Below are positions 1-11,028 of a stretch of DNA of 44,513 nucleotides, in pieces (the stretch's first letter is position 1; the number at the start of each line of letters is the position of its first letter). Origin of the DNA: Sphingobacteriaceae bacterium (GTDB lineage Bacteria; Bacteroidota; Bacteroidia; Sphingobacteriales; Sphingobacteriaceae). The notes under the pieces were generated by a model. That model saw only the letters and a program-made list of their open reading frames with translations, did not search any database and was not told the DNA's origin. The position numbers were made by a program, and so were the translations under genes. The DNA lies in NCBI GenBank assembly GCA_947479815.1, contig CANKAT010000020.1:1-44513 (forward strand), written 5' to 3'.

Positions 1-96
1 AGCATCCTGATCGCTTGTACTTAATGCGCCAACCACCTGGTTGATGGTATTGGATTCGTACAAATTAGATTTAGTGATGGCCATGGCACTTGGCGT
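1..96 (-). repeat. Module shared with adhesin A (copy 1)
   Basis: Bases 1-96 match 7765-7860 with only two differences (positions 7 and 19), then similarity drops. Both copies encode the start of the last cadherin-like repeat (NETPSAMAITKSNLYESN). The match probably continues off the window. Confidence 0.9.
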
Positions 97-3000
97 TTCG
101 TTGACATCAGTAATAGTGATGGAAAGTGCTTTTTCAAAACTTAATCCACCCGCATCGGTTACTTTTATTCTTACCGCATAACTATTTTTAGTTTCGAAAT
201 CAAATGCCGTAGTAGTTTTTAAAGTGCTGCCATCTAGTGTAAAGCTTGCATTATCTGCAGATCCTGTTCCGGCAACTAATGCAAAAGTAAAGGTATCACC
301 AGCATCTTCATCTGTTCCTGCTAACGTACCTACACTAGTACCTGATGCAGCATTTTCAGCAACACTTGTTGCATTTGCAGTAATATTAGTTGGGGCTTCA
401 TTTACATTTGTAACAGCAATGGTCAATGCTTTTTCAAAACTTAAGCCACCCGCATCGGTTACTTTAATTCTTACACTATAGCTAGTCTTTGTTTCATAGT
501 TAAATGAACCAACTGCGCTTAATGAAGAACCACTTATGCTAAATCTTGCATTGTCTGTGTCGCCTGTTCCCGCTACTAGTGTGTAGGTAAATGTTTCGCC
601 AATGTTACTATCTGTTGCCGATAAAGTTGCAATACTAGCACCTGCTGCATTGTTTTCATTGACACTTGAAACAGAAGTTGCGATGTTTGTTGGAGCCACA
701 TTAACGATGCTAAAGGTCTGGGTCTTTGTACCCGTATAGATACCCATCCCCGTGATGGTCACCGTGGCCGTCCCTAAATTCGTATTATCACTGTAGGCAA
801 CTGTATAATCTGTACCTAGGGTCAAGGTCGTGGCACCATCCTTTACTACAATGGCTGGAGTTAAGGCTGATCCCGTGTAGGTTTGATTCGCGATGGGTTC
901 AATCGTCAAAGTACTCACTGCCTTCGATACGATGCTAAAGGTCTGGGTCTTTGTACCTGTATAGATATCCATACCCGTGATTGTCACCGTTGCCGTGCCT
1001 ACATTTGTGTTATTGCTGTAGGCAACTGTATAATCTGTACCTAGGGTCAAGGTGGTAGTACCATCCTTTACTACAATTGCTGGAGTCAAGGCTGATCCCG
1101 TGTAGGTTTGGTTGGCAATCGGGTCGATCGTCAAGCTGCTTGCTGCTTTGGCAGTTATGTTCGCAGTTAATCCTGTTGGTTGACTTACCGTATAATTACC
1201 AGCTGCTGTACCTCCTAAAGTGTAACCAGTTACAGTAACTGCTTTGTTTGTTCCTACACTTGCATTGTTAAATGTTGCAGTGGCTGTTCCAGCTAGTGTA
1301 ACATTCGCTTGGTCTGCTGTTACAACTCCTACAAGTGTTGCAGTGCCGCCCAGCGTTGCTGTTAGGTTAGCATCGTATTCTTTATTGCTCGCAGTAACTC
1401 CTGTGATCGTTAATCCTAGCGCAGTAACAGTACTAGAAACTGTTGCTACATTAACTGTTTGCGCATTTGTAGAAGTACAGGTTACATCACCAGAATAAGG
1501 AGATCCTACAACTGAACTATTCGATTTTAATCTTACATAAACCGTAGTGATTGAAACTGTTCCACTGGTTTGAGTTAATGTAACTGTATTACCAAAGCCA
1601 CTAGTTGGTGAAACACTTACTTCAAAACCACTTGGAGCTGTAACAATTATATCATTAGTTAAAGAAACACCGCTTACACTGAAGCTGGTATTGCTTGATG
1701 CAGTTGCATATATAGTAGTTAATGCCGCTAATGTTCCAGTTGTTGTAATGGTTGCTAAATCACTAACCGTAATGCCATTGCCCGTTAAATCTGCTAGTAC
1801 TACAGCAGGATCAGCTCCTGCGTTCCAATCTTCTGCTGCTGCTAAATTATATGTTGTTCCTCCAATTGAACTGGTTCCAATCTTATTCAACAATGCATTA
1901 ATGGATGTTTTATCTGTAGCATTAAGTGTAATGCTAAAACTTGTTGCATTAGTTAGCTCAACATTTGATGTAGTTAACGAGTAAGAGCTACCACCTTCTC
2001 CTGTGAGGCTTAACTTACTCACATCAATATCATTAGTTGCTCCTGCTATAGCTACTAGGTTTGTTCCAGTTACTACCAATGCCCCTGTTGAAGCATTATA
2101 CGTTGCTGAAGTAATGGTGGGTGGCGGTGGAACATAGGTATACACCCATGCCGCACCCTGAATTGAATTATCGGCATACCCTCCCAGGATGGCGGTAGTA
2201 CCATCCGCGCTGATCGAGACAGCGTAGCCTTGTTGTGCATTACCTACAGCTCCTGTTCCTACTAATTTATCTCCCCGCTGGCTCCAGGTAGTTCCGCTTC
2301 GGGTAAAGACCCATGCGGCTCCCTGATTTGTATTATCGAGATTTCCACCCAGGATGGCGGTAGTACCATCTGCGCTGATCGAAACAGCAACACCTTGCTC
2401 TGCAGCACCGGTATTTCCTGTTCCTACTAATTTTGCTCCCTGCTGGGTCCAGGTAGCCCCGCTTCGGGTAAAGATCCATGCGGCGCCCTGATTTGTATTA
2501 TCGAGATTTCCACCCAGGATGGCGGTAGTACCATCCGCGCTGAGGGAAACAGCAGCACCTTGCCGTGCAGCACCGGTATTTCCTGTTCCTACTAATTTAA
2601 CTCCCTGCTGGGTCCAGGTAGTATCGCTCCGGGTAAAGATCCATGCGGCGCCCTGATCTGAATTATCGCGATTCCCTCCCACAATGGCGGTATTTCCATC
2701 CGCGCTAAGCGAAACAGCCCGACCTTGTTGTGCAGCACCGGTATTTCCTGTTCCTACTAATTTTGCTCCCTGCTGAGTCCAGGTAGTTCCGCTTCGGGTA
2801 AAGATCCATGCGGCGCCCTGATCTGAATTATCGCGATTCCCACTCACGATGGCGGTATTACCATCTGCACTAATCGAAACAGCCCGACCTTGCCGTGCAG
2901 CACCGGTATTTCCTGTTCCAACTAATTTATCTCCCTGCTGGCTCCAGGTAGTTCCGCTTCGCGTAAAGATCCATGCGGCCCCCTGGAATGAATTATCTGC

Positions 3001-6000
3001 ATACCCTCCCATAATGGCGGTATTCCCATCTGCGCTGAGTGAAACAGCAACACCTTGCTGTGCATTACCGACAGCTCCAGTTCCTACTAATTTTGCTCCC
3101 TGCTGGCTCCAGGTAGCTCCGCTTCGGGTATAGATCCATGCGGCCCCCTGAGATGAATTATCGGTATCACCTCCCACGATGGCGGTATTCCCATCTGCGC
3201 TGATTGAAACAATGTAACCTTGATTCGCTGCACCGGTATTTCCTGTTCCTACTAATTTAGCTCCCTGCTGTGTATTGGGTGTAGGTGCAACGCTGAGCGT
3301 AAAGGTTCCGGTGGAAGAGACGGATCCACCAGCCGTTGTTAAGGATATTGTTCCTGTTACCGCTCCAGGCATAACCATTCCCACTAGGCTAGTTCCGGTA
3401 TTGGAAATGACGATGGCTGCTGTACCACCAATGGTAAAGGCTGTTGGAGTTCCCAGGTTGGTTCCGGTTATGGTCACCAATGTACCTACCGGGCCGCTGG
3501 CTGGGCTAAAAGAGGTGATTGTTGTTGGTGGAACAACGATGCTAAAAGTCGCGGTTTTCGTTCCTATATAGCTCCCCATCCCTGTGATCGTCACTGTTGC
3601 TGTCCCCACATTCGTATTGTTGCTGTAGGCAACTGAATAATGTGTGCCTAGGGTCAAGGTTGTGGGTCCGTCCTTTACTACAATTGCTGGGGTCAATGGG
3701 GACCCGGTATAGCTTTGGTCAGCAATGGCATCAATCGTCAGCCTACTGACCGCCGCATTTAACGTCATGACTCGATTACCTGTTCCCGAGCCAGAAACAG
3801 CAACAAATAAACCATTTCCATAGGCTAAACCATACCAGGCATTATTTACTATTGATTTTTGAGCCGTCCAGGTAATCCCATCCGGGCTGGTCATTACTCG
3901 ATTTGTTCCATTATCAGAAACAGCTACGAATAAACCATTGCCATAGGTTAAACTGTACCAATTATTATCTTCTGCCGATGTTCTTGCTGTCCAGGTAATT
4001 CCATCTGGGCTGGTCATGACGCGATTTCCCGTTCCCGAAGTAGCAACCGATACAAACAAACCATTCCCATAGGCTAAGCCCCCCCAATTATTGTCCGCTG
4101 CGGATGTTCGAATAGTCCAGGTAATCCCATCTGGGCTAGTCATCACGCGATTTCCTATGCCAGAAGTAGAAACCGCTACAAACAACCCATTTCCATAGGT
4201 TACATTATACCAATTATTATCTGCTGCAGATGTGCGAGCGGTCCAAGTAATCCCATCTGGGCTGGTCATTACGCGATTTCCTGTGCCAGAGGAAGCTACG
4301 GCTACATATAATCCATTCCCATAGGCTACATTCCTCCAACTATAATCTGCTGCGGATGTTCGAATAGTCCAGGTAATCCCATCTGGGCTGGTCATGACTC
4401 TATTTCCTGTACCAGAGGAAGCAACGGCTACAAATAAACCATTCGCATAGGTTATTTCCCACCAGCCATTATCTGCTGCGGATGTGCGAATAGTCCAGGT
4501 AATCCCATCTGGGCTGGTCATTACTCGATTTCCTGTGCCACTATAAGCAATTGCTACAAATACTCCGTTTCCATACGCTACTCCATACCAGGAATTATCT
4601 GCTGCAGATGTTCTTGAGGTCCAAGGAACTATCTCAAAAGTTTGGGTTTTGGTGCCTGCATAGTTGCCCATCCCCGTGATGGTTACCGTAGCCGTACCCA
4701 AATCGGTGTTCGCCGTATAGGCAAGAGTATAATCCGTGCCTAGGGTCAAGGTTGTGGCACCGTCTTTTACTATAATTGCTGGAGTCAAGGCTGATCCAGT
4801 AAAGGTTTGATTTGCAATTGCATCAATCGTTAAGCTGCTCGCTGCCTTTGCTACGATGCTAAAGGTCGCGGTTTTCGTGCCTACATAGTTGCCCATCCCT
4901 GTGATCGTCACTGTAGCTGTCCCCACATTCGTGTTGTTGCTGTAAGCCACTGAATAGTGTGTGCCGAGGGTCAAGGTGGTGGCATCATCCTTTACTACAA
5001 TTGCTGGAGTCAAGGGGGCGCCCGTATAAGTTTGGTTCGCAATGGCATCAATCGTCAGCCTGCTGACCGCTGCATTTGAAGTCATCACTCGATTTCCTGT
5101 TCCGTCCCTGGAAACTGCCACAAAAAGGCCGTTTCCATAGGCTATCCCATTCCATAAATTGTCTGCCGCGGAGGTGCGGGTGGTCCAGGTAATCCCATCG
5201 GGGCTGGTCATGACCCGATTTCCTGTGCCACTTGCCGCTACCGCAACAAAAAGACCATTGGCAAAAACTACTCTATTCCAATTTAAATCTGCTGCGGATG
5301 TTCTGGAGGTCCAGGTAATCCCATCCGGGCTGGTCATGACCCGATTTCCTGTTCCAGTGACGCCTCTAGAAACCGCTACAAAAAGACCGTTACCAAAAGT
5401 CACATAATTCCACTCGTTCTCCGCTGCTGAATTTTGCAAAGTCCAGTTTATACCATCGGGGCTGGTCATTACCCGATTTCCAGTTCCAGTTCCAGAAACC
5501 GCAACAAAAAGACCATTTGCGTACGTTACACTATTCCATGAATTATTTGCTGGAGAAGTCTGAGATGTCCAGGTAATCCCATCGGGGCTGGTCATTACTC
5601 GATTACCTGTTCCAGTGGCGGATACCGCAACAAAAAGACCATTGCCGTAGGTAACATTCAACCAGGCATTATCTGCTGCAGAAGTTTGAGATGTCCAGGT
5701 AATGCCATCTGGACTTGTCATCACTCTATTTCCAAATACAGTTGTAGACACTGCAACAAAAAGCCCATTGCCATAGGTAACGCTATTCCAGGTATTGTCC
5801 GCTGCTGATGTACAAGAGGTCCACGTAATGCCATCTGGACTAGTCATCACACGATTACCTGTTCCGCTTCCAGAAACAGCAACAAATAGCCCATTTCCGT
5901 AAATCACACTATTCCATTGATTATCTGCCGCGGATGTTCTAGAGATCCAAGTATCTTGTGCTTGTACTTGAAAACAAAAAAATAAATTGATAACAATAAA

Positions 6001-6054
6001 AGCAAAAAAATAAATTTTTTGGTTTTTGCGTGAAAACGAATTTGGTGTAAGCAA
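1..6054 (-). CDS. Giant multi-repeat T9SS-type surface adhesin B (partial, C-terminus off window)
   Basis: One frame stays open from about 6054 to base 1 (at least 2018 codons); I checked it at seven separate points. There is no in-frame ATG between the upstream TAG and the signal peptide, so TTG at 6054-6052 is the likeliest start. It gives a charged n-region, a hydrophobic stretch and a VQA-Q cleavage site near residue 35. Domains by approximate residue: seven 42-aa repeats with NRVMTSPDGITWT (35-325); two Ig-like repeats (328-475); a second set of seven 42-aa repeats (476-762); Ig-like (765-835); IPT/TIG (836-921); seven 55-aa FG-GAP-like repeats with SADGNTAIVGG (925-1303); an unassigned stretch; YDG-like (1541-1630); two more Ig-like repeats; cadherin-like repeats (1785 onward). 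By analogy with adhesin A, the missing end should carry a T9SS type-B sorting domain. The role as a surface adhesin is inferred from architecture. Confidence 0.85.
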   Translation of the reverse strand, partial: MLTPNSFSRKNQKIYFFAFIVINLFFCFQVQAQDTWISRTSAADNQWNSVIYGNGLFVAVSGSGTGNRVMTSPDGITWTSCTSAADNTWNSVTYGNGLFVAVSTTVFGNRVMTSPDGITWTSQTSAADNAWLNVTYGNGLFVAVSATGTGNRVMTSPDGITWTSQTSPANNSWNSVTYANGLFVAVSGTGTGNRVMTSPDGINWTLQNSAAENEWNYVTFGNGLFVAVSRGVTGTGNRVMTSPDGITWTSRTSAADLNWNRVVFANGLFVAVAASGTGNRVMTSPDGITWTTRTSAADNLWNGIAYGNGLFVAVSRDGTGNRVMTSNAAVSRLTIDAIANQTYTGAPLTPAIVVKDDATTLTLGTHYSVAYSNNTNVGTATVTITGMGNYVGTKTATFSIVAKAASSLTIDAIANQTFTGSALTPAIIVKDGATTLTLGTDYTLAYTANTDLGTATVTITGMGNYAGTKTQTFEIVPWTSRTSAADNSWYGVAYGNGVFVAIAYSGTGNRVMTSPDGITWTIRTSAADNGWWEITYANGLFVAVASSGTGNRVMTSPDGITWTIRTSAADYSWRNVAYGNGLYVAVASSGTGNRVMTSPDGITWTARTSAADNNWYNVTYGNGLFVAVSTSGIGNRVMTSPDGITWTIRTSAADNNWGGLAYGNGLFVSVATSGTGNRVMTSPDGITWTARTSAEDNNWYSLTYGNGLFVAVSDNGTNRVMTSPDGITWTAQKSIVNNAWYGLAYGNGLFVAVSGSGTGNRVMTLNAAVSRLTIDAIADQSYTGSPLTPAIVVKDGPTTLTLGTHYSVAYSNNTNVGTATVTITGMGSYIGTKTATFSIVVPPTTITSFSPASGPVGTLVTITGTNLGTPTAFTIGGTAAIVISNTGTSLVGMVMPGAVTGTISLTTAGGSVSSTGTFTLSVAPTPNTQQGAKLVGTGNTGAANQGYIVSISADGNTAIVGGDTDNSSQGAAWIYTRSGATWSQQGAKLVGTGAVGNAQQGVAVSLSADGNTAIMGGYADNSFQGAAWIFTRSGTTWSQQGDKLVGTGNTGAARQGRAVSISADGNTAIVSGNRDNSDQGAAWIFTRSGTTWTQQGAKLVGTGNTGAAQQGRAVSLSADGNTAIVGGNRDNSDQGAAWIFTRSDTTWTQQGVKLVGTGNTGAARQGAAVSLSADGTTAILGGNLDNTNQGAAWIFTRSGATWTQQGAKLVGTGNTGAAEQGVAVSISADGTTAILGGNLDNTNQGAAWVFTRSGTTWSQRGDKLVGTGAVGNAQQGYAVSISADGTTAILGGYADNSIQGAAWVYTYVPPPPTITSATYNASTGALVVTGTNLVAIAGATNDIDVSKLSLTGEGGSSYSLTTSNVELTNATSFSITLNATDKTSINALLNKIGTSSIGGTTYNLAAAEDWNAGADPAVVLADLTGNGITVSDLATITTTGTLAALTTIYATASSNTSFSVSGVSLTNDIIVTAPSGFEVSVSPTSGFGNTVTLTQTSGTVSITTVYVRLKSNSSVVGSPYSGDVTCTSTNAQTVNVATVSSTVTALGLTITGVTASNKEYDANLTATLGGTATLVGVVTADQANVTLAGTATATFNNASVGTNKAVTVTGYTLGGTAAGNYTVSQPTGLTANITAKAASSLTIDPIANQTYTGSALTPAIVVKDGTTTLTLGTDYTVAYSNNTNVGTATVTITGMDIYTGTKTQTFSIVSKAVSTLTIEPIANQTYTGSALTPAIVVKDGATTLTLGTDYTVAYSDNTNLGTATVTITGMGIYTGTKTQTFSIVNVAPTNIATSVSSVNENNAAGASIATLSATDSNIGETFTYTLVAGTGDTDNARFSISGSSLSAVGSFNYETKTSYSVRIKVTDAGGLSFEKALTIAVTNVNEAPTNITANATSVAENAASGTSVGTLAGTDEDAGDTFTFALVAGTGSADNASFTLDGSTLKTTTAFDFETKNSYAVRIKVTDAGGLSFEKALSITITDVNETPSAMAITKSNLYESNTINQVVGALSTSDQDA
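2150..3275 (-). repeat. Seven tandem ~55-aa FG-GAP-like repeats (array 3)
   Basis: Seven units of about 165 bp encode QQGAKLVGTG, then QGxAVSLSADGNTAIVGG, then DNSxQGAAWIFTRSGTTW. The N-terminal unit is preceded by TPNT and the last stops at GAAWVYTY without the TTW strand, again a split first and last blade. The family resembles FG-GAP_2-type repeats and is unrelated in sequence to arrays 1 and 2. Confidence 0.85.
3765..4630 (-). repeat. Seven tandem ~42-aa repeats (propeller-like array 2)
   Basis: A second array of the same repeat family, again with exactly seven units. Six end in MTSPDGITWT and the last in MTLNAAV. The unit before the first repeat (VPWTS) supplies the missing strand. It is separated from array 1 by two Ig-like domains, so this is not one continuous array. 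Intra-array nucleotide similarity is high. Confidence 0.85.
5074..5955 (-). repeat. Seven tandem ~42-aa repeats (propeller-like array 1)
   Basis: Seven coding repeats of about 126 bp. The consensus is RTSAADNxW, then YGNGLFVAVS, then GTGNRVMTSPDGITWT. The first six end in MTSPDGITWT or a close variant; the seventh ends at MTSNAAV and lacks the last strand, while an extra W-x-S strand precedes the first repeat. This pattern suits a closed seven-bladed beta-propeller with velcro closure. Confidence 0.85.
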
Positions 6055-7017: not shown

Positions 7018-10000
7018 TTATTTGGTTATTGTAATAAATCCTCTTTTACTTACTTTTTGACCTGAAGGTGAATCAAAGGTCAAAACATAGTAATAGGTAC
7101 CCGATGGAAGTGGTGCGCCATTAAATAAACCCGTCCAATCATTGGCATAACCTGATTTTTTGTATATCAATACATTAGAACGGTCCAGTATAATTAACTG
7201 ATTATTAGGGTAGCTGCTTAAATTTTCAATCACCCAATTATCGTTTACTCCATCTCCATTTGGTGTTAAAATATTGTTTGGAACAATGTTCCAATCTTCC
7301 ATCACCTCTACAGTAATGCTTAGGGTAGTTGAACTTCCATAAACGTTGGTTACCGTAACGGAGTAGCTCTGTGTTTGGCTAGGTTGAGCTACAGGATTAT
7401 AAATGTTTGCTGAACTTAAGCTAGCAGATGGACTCCAATTAAAAGAGGCCATATCTATTCCACTCACATTCAGCTTAGAGGTTAAACCCTTACTGATTTT
7501 AGGAGTGGCACTCGCTACTGCCTGTATTTGTGTGCCATATTCATTACCTGTACCTGTAAGTGTTGGTAGCTGACTGATGCTTACCGTATACACTTTCTCA
7601 AAGCTCAGGCCTCCTTTATCGGTAGTTCGAACACGAATGCTATAGGAGTTCTTAGTTGCAAAACTAAATACCTGCGATGCTCTGATTTGATTACCACTCA
7701 CATTAAATGCGGCATTATCTGTTGAGCCTACACCCGAAACCAAACTGTAGGTATGACTATCGCCAGCATCTTGATCGCTTGTGCTTAATGCGCCAACCAC
7801 CTGGTTGATGGTATTGGATTCGTACAAATTAGATTTAGTGATGGCCATGGCACTTGGCGTCTCGTTTACATCAGTAATGGAAATACTCAGTGTTTTTTGA
7901 AAACTTAATCCACCTGCATCGGTTGTTTGTATACGAATGCTGTAACTGCTTTTAGCTTCAAAATCAAATATGTCTTTTGCCCCTAGGGTATTTCCAGAAA
8001 GGGTAAATTTGCTATTATCAGTGCTCCCGGCACCGCTTACTAGGCTATAAGTAAAACTATCTCCTGCATCTGGATCTGTACTGGCAAGTGTTCCTATAGA
8101 AGCGCCAACTGCGTTGTTTTCATCAATAGTTGCGTTACTTAAAGCGATCGCCGTAGGTGCTTCATTTACATTTGCTATAGTCAGGGTAAATTCTTTTTGA
8201 AAACTTAATCCAGCTGCATCGCTTGTTTGGATACGAATTTTGTAACTGCTTTTGGTTTCATAATCAAAGGCTTCTGTTGCTCTAAGGGTACTTCCAGCAA
8301 TGGTAAATTTGTCATTATCATCGATATTCATCCTGGCACCGTTTAGGTCATAAGTGTTTACTAAGCTATAAGTAAAACTATCGCCAGCATCTTGATCTGT
8401 ACTGGCAAGTGTTCCTATAGAAGCGTCAATTGCGTTGTTTTCATCAATAGTTGCGTTACTTAAAGCAATTGCCGTAGGTGCTTCATTTACATTTACTATA
8501 GTCAGGGTAAATTCTTTTTGAAAACTTAATCCACCAGCATCCCTTGTTTGGATACGAATTTTGTAACTGCTTTTGGTTTCATAATCAAAGGCTTCTGCTG
8601 CTTTAAGGGTATTTCCAGTAATGGTAAATTTGCTATTGTCAGTACTTCCGGCACCGCTTACTAGGCTATAAGTAAAACTATCTCCTGCATCTGGATCTGT
8701 ACTGGCAAGTGTTCCTATAGAAGCGTCAATTGCGTTGTTTTCACTAATAGTTGCGGTACTTAATGTGATATTTGAAGGGGCACTATTTGAAGGGCCAAAA
8801 TGGTTCGATCTTCTTATGCCGGGTGTACCAAATAAACCACCCCTGAATGCTACATTCATTACAAATAAATTGTCAGTCTCTGCCAATGAGCTTACTCCAG
8901 TCTTATATACAGTTACTCTGGGTGCACCCCCTGGACCAGCTAGTGCCATAGGATAGATTATACCATTAGCATCTTCAGCTACCCCAACATTAATAAAACC
9001 AGCAAATGGAATAGCGGCGGCTATACCTGCGGTATTTGAATCTAATATAACCCCAAATTCGCTATTCGAAGTCCCGACAATTATATCGGATATATTTCCA
9101 TTATTAAGGTAGCCGGAAGCTATGCTTAGGCCGCCAACAGAAGTTGTATTATTGAAAGCAAAAAAATTATCTATTACAGTTGGCGAGTTGCCTTTACCAT
9201 TAGTATTAAATGATTTGATATTATATCCACCATTACTGGCTGGCGCAGTTATTACCTCATCAACTCCATCTCCATTTCTGTCTCCTGCAGCAACCCTCAC
9301 GCCTCCCGTAAATGCTGGAGAATAGGCAAAAAAATCATTGAGTGTTGAAGTGGTAACCGCACCAGTTGCACTACCAGCGTATACTTGAACCCGGGATCCA
9401 CCTGTTGCTCCTGCTCCAACTATAATATCGTCGAAATCATCTGCGTTGGTTCTTCCAGTTGCCACATAAACTCCGCCAGTAAAACTGGGCGCGCTAAATG
9501 CAAAAAAACTTTTCTGTAAAGATACTGCACCAGTTGATGGGTTTACATTATATACATTAACCTGTGGTCCTCCGCCTGGCCCTGCTCCTGTAATAACATC
9601 CATATTCCCGTCACCATTTATATCCCCTAAGGCAACTCGAACACCGCCCAAAAAACTTGAGGCATAAGCAAAAAAAGATACATAGGTTCCATTGGTAAAG
9701 GTGATAGTAACTAATGGCCCACCACCAGCATCAGCTCCAACGGCTGTAAATTTTGCTAATGAAGGCTGTCCAGCAACCATGGGTTGTGCAGGCGCAGTTG
9801 GAGCTATAATACTTGGAGTTGTAATTTGATTTGATGCAGCAGAAGCATTACTGGATCCTATTCCATTTACAGCCTTCACGGTAAAGGTATAGCTGGTACT
9901 AGGCGCCAAATTGCTAACAGAAATAGTACCTGATCCTGCTCCATAAAAGGTACCTGCACCTCCTGCTGGCGAAGAAGTGACCACATAACCTGTAATGGCC

Positions 10001-11028
10001 GACCCGCCATTATTGCTTGGCGCTGTAAAAGCAACAGTAGCGGTAGTAGGCCCAGTTGCAGTGGCAGCTCCAATAGTTGGGGCATCAGGAGCAGTAATTG
10101 GAGTTGGAGTTGTAATTTGATTTGATGCAGCAGAGGCCTTACCGAATCCATTTGTATTCCTAGCCTTCACCGTAAAGGTATAGTTTGTACTATGCGTCAA
10201 ATTGCTAACAGAAATAGTACCTGATCCTGCTCCATTAAAGGTACCTGTACCTCCTGCCGGCGAAGAAGTTACTTCATAACTGGTAATGGCCGACCCACCA
10301 TTATTGCTGGCTGCTGTAAATGCAACAGTGGCGGTAGTAAATCCAGTTGCTGTTGCAGTTCCAATAGTTGGAGCATCAGGAGTACCTGGTGTAACACTGT
10401 TGGATGGGGCCGATGGTGTGCCTTGACCGCCCATTGAATTTTCGGCAGATACCACAAAGGTGTAGGCAGTTCCATTCCTTAGTCCAGGAACTATAATTGG
10501 AGAGCTTATACCTGACATCATAATATTGCCGGGACTAGCAACTACCATGTACATAAAAATTGGTGTTCCTCCATCATCAGTTGGAGGTGTAAACGAAATA
10601 CTAGCTTGTTCATTACCCGCAACAGCCACCACGTTTGTTGGTTCATTTGGCCCCCTAACCGGAACTACCCAGTTGGAGACTTCTGAAGGGATACTTGAAC
10701 CTACTGCATTTACTGCTGTTATGGTAAAATTATATGGTGTATCAGAAGTTAGGCCAGTGATGGTAATTGTTCCACTTCCAGCCCCAGTAAAGATACCTGT
10801 AATTCCACCGGGCGAAGACGTAGCTACATATCTTAAAATGGGTGAACCACCATTATTTGTTGGCGCGGTAAATGAAACAGTGGCCGAGGTAGCACCTGTA
10901 GCTGTAGCCCATCCAATAGTTGGAGCACCTGGGGCAGTTTGCGCATTTATAGTTATCGGTAGTATAGCAAATAGAAAATAACTAAACCAATAAAGAATAG
11001 AGGTTTTCTTGGGTAGAGCAGATTTCAT
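7018..11028 (-). CDS. Multidomain T9SS cargo adhesin A with type-B sorting domain
   Basis: 1336 aa. A signal peptide ends at INAQ (about residue 30). Four fibronectin type III domains follow (about 28-406). Next is an FG-GAP/integrin-like propeller region (409-749) with calcium-loop motifs DINGDGNMD and DRNGDGVDE. Four cadherin-like repeats occupy about 749-1152, then an Ig-like domain (1151-1246). The last ~88 residues match the gliding-motility C-terminal (CHU_C, T9SS type-B) sorting domain, with ILTPNGDGVND and a KRGFITITK end. The protein should cross the outer membrane through the T9SS and stay on, or leave, the cell surface. It heads the adhesin A, PorP/SprF, adhesin B cluster. The ligand is unknown. 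Internal cadherin repeats are close to identical at DNA level (for example 8041-8103 against 8661-8725), a sign of recent duplication. Confidence 0.93.
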   Translation of the reverse strand: MKSALPKKTSILYWFSYFLFAILPITINAQTAPGAPTIGWATATGATSATVSFTAPTNNGGSPILRYVATSSPGGITGIFTGAGSGTITITGLTSDTPYNFTITAVNAVGSSIPSEVSNWVVPVRGPNEPTNVVAVAGNEQASISFTPPTDDGGTPIFMYMVVASPGNIMMSGISSPIIVPGLRNGTAYTFVVSAENSMGGQGTPSAPSNSVTPGTPDAPTIGTATATGFTTATVAFTAASNNGGSAITSYEVTSSPAGGTGTFNGAGSGTISVSNLTHSTNYTFTVKARNTNGFGKASAASNQITTPTPITAPDAPTIGAATATGPTTATVAFTAPSNNGGSAITGYVVTSSPAGGAGTFYGAGSGTISVSNLAPSTSYTFTVKAVNGIGSSNASAASNQITTPSIIAPTAPAQPMVAGQPSLAKFTAVGADAGGGPLVTITFTNGTYVSFFAYASSFLGGVRVALGDINGDGNMDVITGAGPGGGPQVNVYNVNPSTGAVSLQKSFFAFSAPSFTGGVYVATGRTNADDFDDIIVGAGATGGSRVQVYAGSATGAVTTSTLNDFFAYSPAFTGGVRVAAGDRNGDGVDEVITAPASNGGYNIKSFNTNGKGNSPTVIDNFFAFNNTTSVGGLSIASGYLNNGNISDIIVGTSNSEFGVILDSNTAGIAAAIPFAGFINVGVAEDANGIIYPMALAGPGGAPRVTVYKTGVSSLAETDNLFVMNVAFRGGLFGTPGIRRSNHFGPSNSAPSNITLSTATISENNAIDASIGTLASTDPDAGDSFTYSLVSGAGSTDNSKFTITGNTLKAAEAFDYETKSSYKIRIQTRDAGGLSFQKEFTLTIVNVNEAPTAIALSNATIDENNAIDASIGTLASTDQDAGDSFTYSLVNTYDLNGARMNIDDNDKFTIAGSTLRATEAFDYETKSSYKIRIQTSDAAGLSFQKEFTLTIANVNEAPTAIALSNATIDENNAVGASIGTLASTDPDAGDSFTYSLVSGAGSTDNSKFTLSGNTLGAKDIFDFEAKSSYSIRIQTTDAGGLSFQKTLSISITDVNETPSAMAITKSNLYESNTINQVVGALSTSDQDAGDSHTYSLVSGVGSTDNAAFNVSGNQIRASQVFSFATKNSYSIRVRTTDKGGLSFEKVYTVSISQLPTLTGTGNEYGTQIQAVASATPKISKGLTSKLNVSGIDMASFNWSPSASLSSANIYNPVAQPSQTQSYSVTVTNVYGSSTTLSITVEVMEDWNIVPNNILTPNGDGVNDNWVIENLSSYPNNQLIILDRSNVLIYKKSGYANDWTGLFNGAPLPSGTYYYVLTFDSPSGQKVSKRGFITITK
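7765..7860 (-). repeat. Module shared with adhesin B (copy 2)
   Basis: Counterpart of bases 1-96, inside the fourth cadherin-like repeat of adhesin A, 94 of 96 bases identical. The 3' flank, which would show how far the shared block extends toward the sorting domain, is outside the window for adhesin B. Confidence 0.9.

Follow-up and report, generated by a model that had tools for sequence, protein, structure and literature searches.

Adhesin B and its neighbourhood

The window analysed here, 44,513 nucleotides long, is the entire contig C20 of a Sphingobacteriaceae genome (G000). It begins, on the minus strand, within the gene of a large putative surface protein, adhesin B, followed by the genes of a PorP/SprF-family protein and of a second protein of similar make-up, adhesin A. 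The features on which we rely are these:

1..6054 (window 6054..1), minus strand: adhesin B open reading frame, 2018 aa, 3' end cut by the contig end
Domain order, N-terminal part: signal-like N-terminus (by eye), propeller 1, two MBG-like repeats, propeller 2
Domain order, middle part: one MBG-like repeat, IPT/TIG-like stretch (by eye), propeller 3
Domain order, C-terminal part: YDG domain, two MBG-like repeats, cadherin repeats
5068..5955 (aa 34-329), minus strand: predicted propeller 1, seven 42-aa blades, its N-terminal strand serving as strand D of blade 7
5938..5946 (aa 37-39), minus strand: predicted Velcro strand of propeller 1 (model strand E4-6)
3754..4632 (aa 475-767), minus strand: predicted propeller 2, seven 42-aa blades, 72% identical to propeller 1
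2119..3294 (aa 921-1312), minus strand: predicted propeller 3, seven 55-aa FG-GAP_2 blades, alpha-integrin-like
3253..3273 (aa 928-934), minus strand: predicted Velcro strand of propeller 3 (model strand E8-14)
1..200, minus strand: contig-end segment, 86-87% identity to window 7765-7964 and to contig C125
6102..6998, minus strand: PorP/SprF-family outer-membrane protein gene directly upstream of adhesin B (PF11751, E 1.5e-46)
7018..11028, minus strand: adhesin A, with fn3, FG-GAP, cadherin and T9SS type B C-terminal domain

The cadherin/CTD region of adhesin A is common to adhesin B, and the contig stops within a stretch also present in adhesin A and in contig C125, each ending in a type B domain. 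Because the contig-end stretch matches these two, the missing C-terminus of adhesin B is expected to resemble theirs and to form a type B C-terminal domain. Adhesin B would be exported and held at the surface through this domain together with the neighbouring PorP/SprF protein, a likely surface anchor for type B adhesins by analogy with the type B CTD proteins found bound to PorP-like proteins (PMC9143113). Adhesin A also has FG-GAP/FG-GAP_3 matches at around aa 460-595, possibly a further propeller of another type. Elsewhere in the same organism (L092, contig C132), a seven-unit FG-GAP_2 array occurs with a T9SS type B sorting domain.

Unit counts, predicted fold and family of the three arrays

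The initial annotation had proposed exactly seven units in each of three arrays (42, 42 and 55 aa), and direct counting agrees: NRVMT occurs seven times in array 1 (aa 67-321) and seven times in array 2 (aa 509-760), and QQG.KLVGTG seven times in array 3 (aa 929-1259). Tandem Repeats Finder returned periods of 126 and 165 bases, matching the 42- and 55-aa units, and the unit layout is therefore not a product of chance. The residue ranges given earlier (35-325, 476-762 and 925-1303) were correct to within a few residues, as was the description of the ends, with a short final unit whose absent strand is placed ahead of the first unit in all three arrays. In array 1, DTWISRTSAADN precedes the first W..V.YGNGLFVAV and the final unit ends past NRVMTS; array 2 has the same layout, a strand before the first unit and a shortened last unit; in array 3 a free QQGAKLV strand comes first and the last unit ends after QGAAWVYT.

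AlphaFold (AF2) models of array 1 (from an alignment of 20 seven-unit arrays; mean pLDDT 94.8, pTM 0.93) and of array 3 (from 17 arrays; pLDDT 92.0, pTM 0.92) have the same architecture. DSSP assigned 28 strands in seven sheets to each, in the order D-(ABCD)x6-ABC, with a lone strand D first and A-B-C last; the alignment rows were picked from seven-unit relatives, which may favour closure, though the query itself has seven. In VIA-align the array 1 model matched virginiamycin B lyase with Z 33.0 (276 residues, 2.2 A) and nvWrap-T, a designed seven-bladed protein, with Z 28.2, each superposition taking in both termini of the model. The best solved structural matches of the array 3 model were all alpha-integrin propellers, and its superposition on integrin alpha-4 likewise covered both termini (Z 39.9, 363 residues, 3.0 A). 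From the strand order and the full superposition on closed rings we conclude that arrays 1 and 3 would close as well, the N-terminal strand D presumably completing the last blade by pairing with its A-B-C sheet. For these two arrays the proposed ring closure of a seven-bladed propeller is thus upheld by predicted structure (both pLDDT >90) and superposition; array 2, given its 72% identity to array 1 and its unit layout, would fold in the same way.

As to the family of the 42-aa repeat, the top Foldseek matches of array 1 were Ycf48 structures (E 2.1e-12, TM 0.72), and its alignment profile reached Ycf48 from sequence alone (E 1.7e-5). A PDB search with the single array 1 sequence found weak matches to symmetric designed trefoils and nothing else, and these we put down to repeat composition. 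The hairpin between strands C and D reads SPDGI[TN]W in 12 of the 12 complete copies in arrays 1 and 2, which fits the short Asp-box, S/T-x-D/N-x-x-x-W/F/Y. In the array 1 model this motif occupies residues 39-45, between strand C (36-39) and strand D (46-48), and Asp-boxes sit between these same strands (PMC8023676). The classical Asp-box (BNR), S-x-D-x-G-x-T-W, has no occurrence in arrays 1 and 2; the short form (S-x-D-x-x-x-W), one residue shorter, was described by Quistgaard and Thirup (2009; PMC2716378).

Pfam holds no family of its own for the 42-aa repeat. Two of its models, DUF6242 (PF19755) and EPTP (PF03736), exceed their cut-off on the whole of array 1, and we accepted membership in neither; for EPTP no single stretch passes alone, so that the match is probably a sum of weak repeat matches. 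NCBIfam matches to array 1 were judged chance-like, and the motif was not found printed in the literature searched. Where phage relatives of the 42-aa arrays carry an annotation, it names them Ycf48-like, photosystem II assembly factor or BNR, and kinship with Ycf48/BNR is therefore already recognised in databases. These annotations qualify the earlier suggestion of a poorly described family.

Array 3 scored 49.8 bits against FG-GAP_2 (PF14312; curated cut-off 23), and the same model matched 19 of the 19 rows of its alignment. The alignment profile reached integrin alpha-4 (E 8.4e-8), and in a previous modelling study the best template given for FG-GAP_2 is an integrin structure, 5ffg (PMC8078820). 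A PDB search with the array 3 sequence alone gave no useful match; in the viral scan the single sequence likewise found none, and the alignment used as query did. The integrin calcium loop DxDxDG had no match within aa 925-1310.

Blade number and blade divergence among relatives

With one fixed filter, and with the three arrays of the window included, seven units were counted in 22 arrays of the 42-aa repeat and in 44 of the 55-aa repeat, which are not independent events, because many of the arrays counted are orthologues or near copies. Most of the other arrays passing the filter involve a contig end or frame break (L039, L050, L085, L091), nesting (L046) or a split unit (L121). The expectation that the unit number would be constant among homologues is met almost everywhere by seven, but there are real exceptions with five or six units. 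A phage array (L045) has six, and a cut copy (L047) agrees; L088 and the third array of L102 have five FG-GAP_2 units each, with normal ends and beside seven-unit relatives:

L088, ORF +2, aa 920-1187: five-unit FG-GAP_2 array
L102, ORF +1, aa 1084-1354: five-unit FG-GAP_2 array

A divergent copy from Bacteroides fragilis (L040), with an uncertain unit count, and L130 are possible further exceptions. Counts at L130 are irregular: across a run of large ORFs its arrays have 3, 4 and 5 units that can be made out, which may reflect either divergence of the blades or true odd numbers. Divergence was too great for a count at this locus, at L101, L100 and L126, and in parts of L125.

Three seven-unit arrays in a single ORF were found at L082, L084 and L037, which refutes the view that three propellers in one protein are rare: such proteins are met with fairly often, and their design was known before. 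L082-L085 cover a cluster on contig C33 of G116 in which four or more large genes each encode two or three seven-unit FG-GAP_2 arrays; in L085 one array is interrupted by a frame change. At L046 (ORF +1, aa 194-802), the units at 367-654 make up an entire seven-unit array that apparently lies inside blade 4 of another propeller, the unit positions placing four blades of the host ahead of the insert and the second half of blade 4 plus three more behind it.

These counts bear on whether the arrays might instead be open stalks, solenoids or beads on a string, with seven units each by coincidence. Other repeats do vary in number, as with the MBG-like repeats of adhesin B itself, in groups of 2, 1 and 2, and a 51-aa repeat present in 23 copies in L033. 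Yet both models are propellers of the closed type, with pLDDT >90, that superpose fully on solved ones, and seven is seen again in dozens of homologous arrays, four of them in L037, so we give open stalks next to no credence. For the closed propellers that we favour, seven would be retained since the ring closes with seven such blades.

A different reading is that the arrays are very recent expansions, or in part an assembly artefact, so that seven is a snapshot of a number not yet settled. DNA identity between blades averages 72-83%, relatives with five or six units exist, and recent amplification of propellers has been documented (PMC9218822). Against this, the blades of array 1 differ at 62% of silent sites and 8% of amino-acid-changing sites, those of array 2 at 41% and 13% and those of array 3 at 25% and 12%, all rough values from short segments. 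These figures speak for old divergence under strong protein constraint, units so different would not readily collapse in assembly, and seven recurs across phyla; we hold a recent or artefactual origin to be very unlikely, and fresh blade duplication is rejected on the silent-site divergence. Since silent sites are far diverged while the protein is nearly unchanged, the symmetry seems to be maintained by selection.

The blades also speak to how the arrays are related. Between arrays 1 and 2, blades in the same position and blades in different positions have the same protein identity, 0.74 (p 0.54; for DNA, p 0.075), and for want of a position-by-position match a whole-propeller duplication giving rise to the two is rejected or has been erased. 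Nearly all other array pairs tested likewise lack such a match. Positional matching is present in orthologous pairs (G057-G099, 0.83 vs 0.52; G098-G129, 0.80 vs 0.50; p 0.0002 in each) and in a single paralogous pair, from G116. Since blade i is not the best match to blade i, the arrays would either have arisen separately from single blades or have been homogenised, and Pereira and Lupas (2022) described the same pattern of separate amplification or homogenisation in other propellers (PMC9218822).

Probable binding role and comparison with known propellers

The relatives point to what the propellers may do. Some relatives of the 42-aa arrays have T9SS type A sorting domains; in others the array is joined to a phage tail protein or lies within one. 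At L042 (1388-2884 and 2863-6285; L043 and L044 are alike) two adjacent genes both hold seven-unit arrays, one fused at the front of a phrog_394 tail protein and the other inserted in a phrog_376 tail protein. L045 (4864-6843) is a phage tail fibre with an Mtd N-terminal domain and the six-unit array, Velcro ends intact; L047 carries the same units. Since T9SS surface proteins and phage tail proteins alike contain such relatives, adhesion or receptor binding would be the likeliest role. The variable positions of the adhesin B blades fall at the start of strand A, in the B-C loop and at the end of strand D, and the YGNG and SPDG hairpins hardly vary; by propeller geometry we take the former to lie on one face and the latter on the other. 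Ligands (glycans or proteins) would then be bound most likely through the face of the B-C and D-A loops.

It might be argued that the propellers are catalytic or scaffold modules, as many propellers are enzymes and the structural neighbours found here include the enzyme virginiamycin B lyase and scaffold proteins. The context is, however, one of T9SS, PorP/SprF, cadherin and MBG-like domains, the relatives carry T9SS sorting domains or lie in phage tail proteins, and, because the blades are nearly identical, no single blade stands apart with a catalytic set. A catalytic or scaffold role therefore appears very unlikely.

Taken together, we read adhesin B as a ligand-binding T9SS surface protein with three closed seven-bladed propellers of two lineages in its N-terminal two thirds, MBG-like and IPT-like spacers and a cadherin stalk, a reading to which we assign a probability of roughly 0.85. 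A broader proposal, which we consider possible though somewhat short of an even chance, is that the 42-aa repeat represents an undescribed seven-bladed lineage with a short Asp-box in each blade, used as an interchangeable receptor-binding head of T9SS surface proteins and phage tails, its symmetry and its seven blades kept in the long term by selection and not by recent duplication. Neither the lineages of the two propeller types nor the way in which they amplify is new; a mild novelty lies in a short-Asp-box seven-bladed lineage, long symmetric and common to secreted surface proteins and phage tails. Adhesin B combines nearly symmetric natural propellers of two lineages in a single chain, and relatives supply versions with five, six and seven units, a set that would allow a direct test of whether blade number follows from ring geometry or from history. 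The same propeller in T9SS surface and phage tail proteins points to a common binding module.

Among known systems, Ycf48, a photosystem II assembly factor and seven-bladed Asp-box propeller, is the best Foldseek match and the sole strong profile match of the 42-aa arrays. The two nonetheless share only about 15% identity, and adhesin B has the short Asp-box in place of the classical one, stands outside any photosynthetic context and has nearly identical blades, whereas those of Ycf48 are divergent. The EPTP/EAR repeats of LGI proteins (PF03736) resemble array 1 in the Pfam score above cut-off, and EPTP repeats form seven-bladed propellers. The short Asp-box in the C-D hairpin likens the 42-aa repeat to five-bladed GH32/GH43 propellers and CBM32 domains, in which the motif has been reported (PMC2716378), but the ring of adhesin B is seven-bladed. 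Array 3 resembles FG-GAP_2/alpha-integrin propellers in its Pfam score and its seven-bladed, integrin-like fold; it differs in being bacterial, in lacking DxDxDG and in having nearly identical blades. Finally, the adhesin B arrays are like the highly repetitive propellers that Pereira and Lupas described in 2022 (PMC9218822) in that blades exceed 60% identity and arrays resemble one another at the level of the blade and not by position, but the clearest of those cases show few silent changes, whereas the silent sites of adhesin B are heavily diverged.
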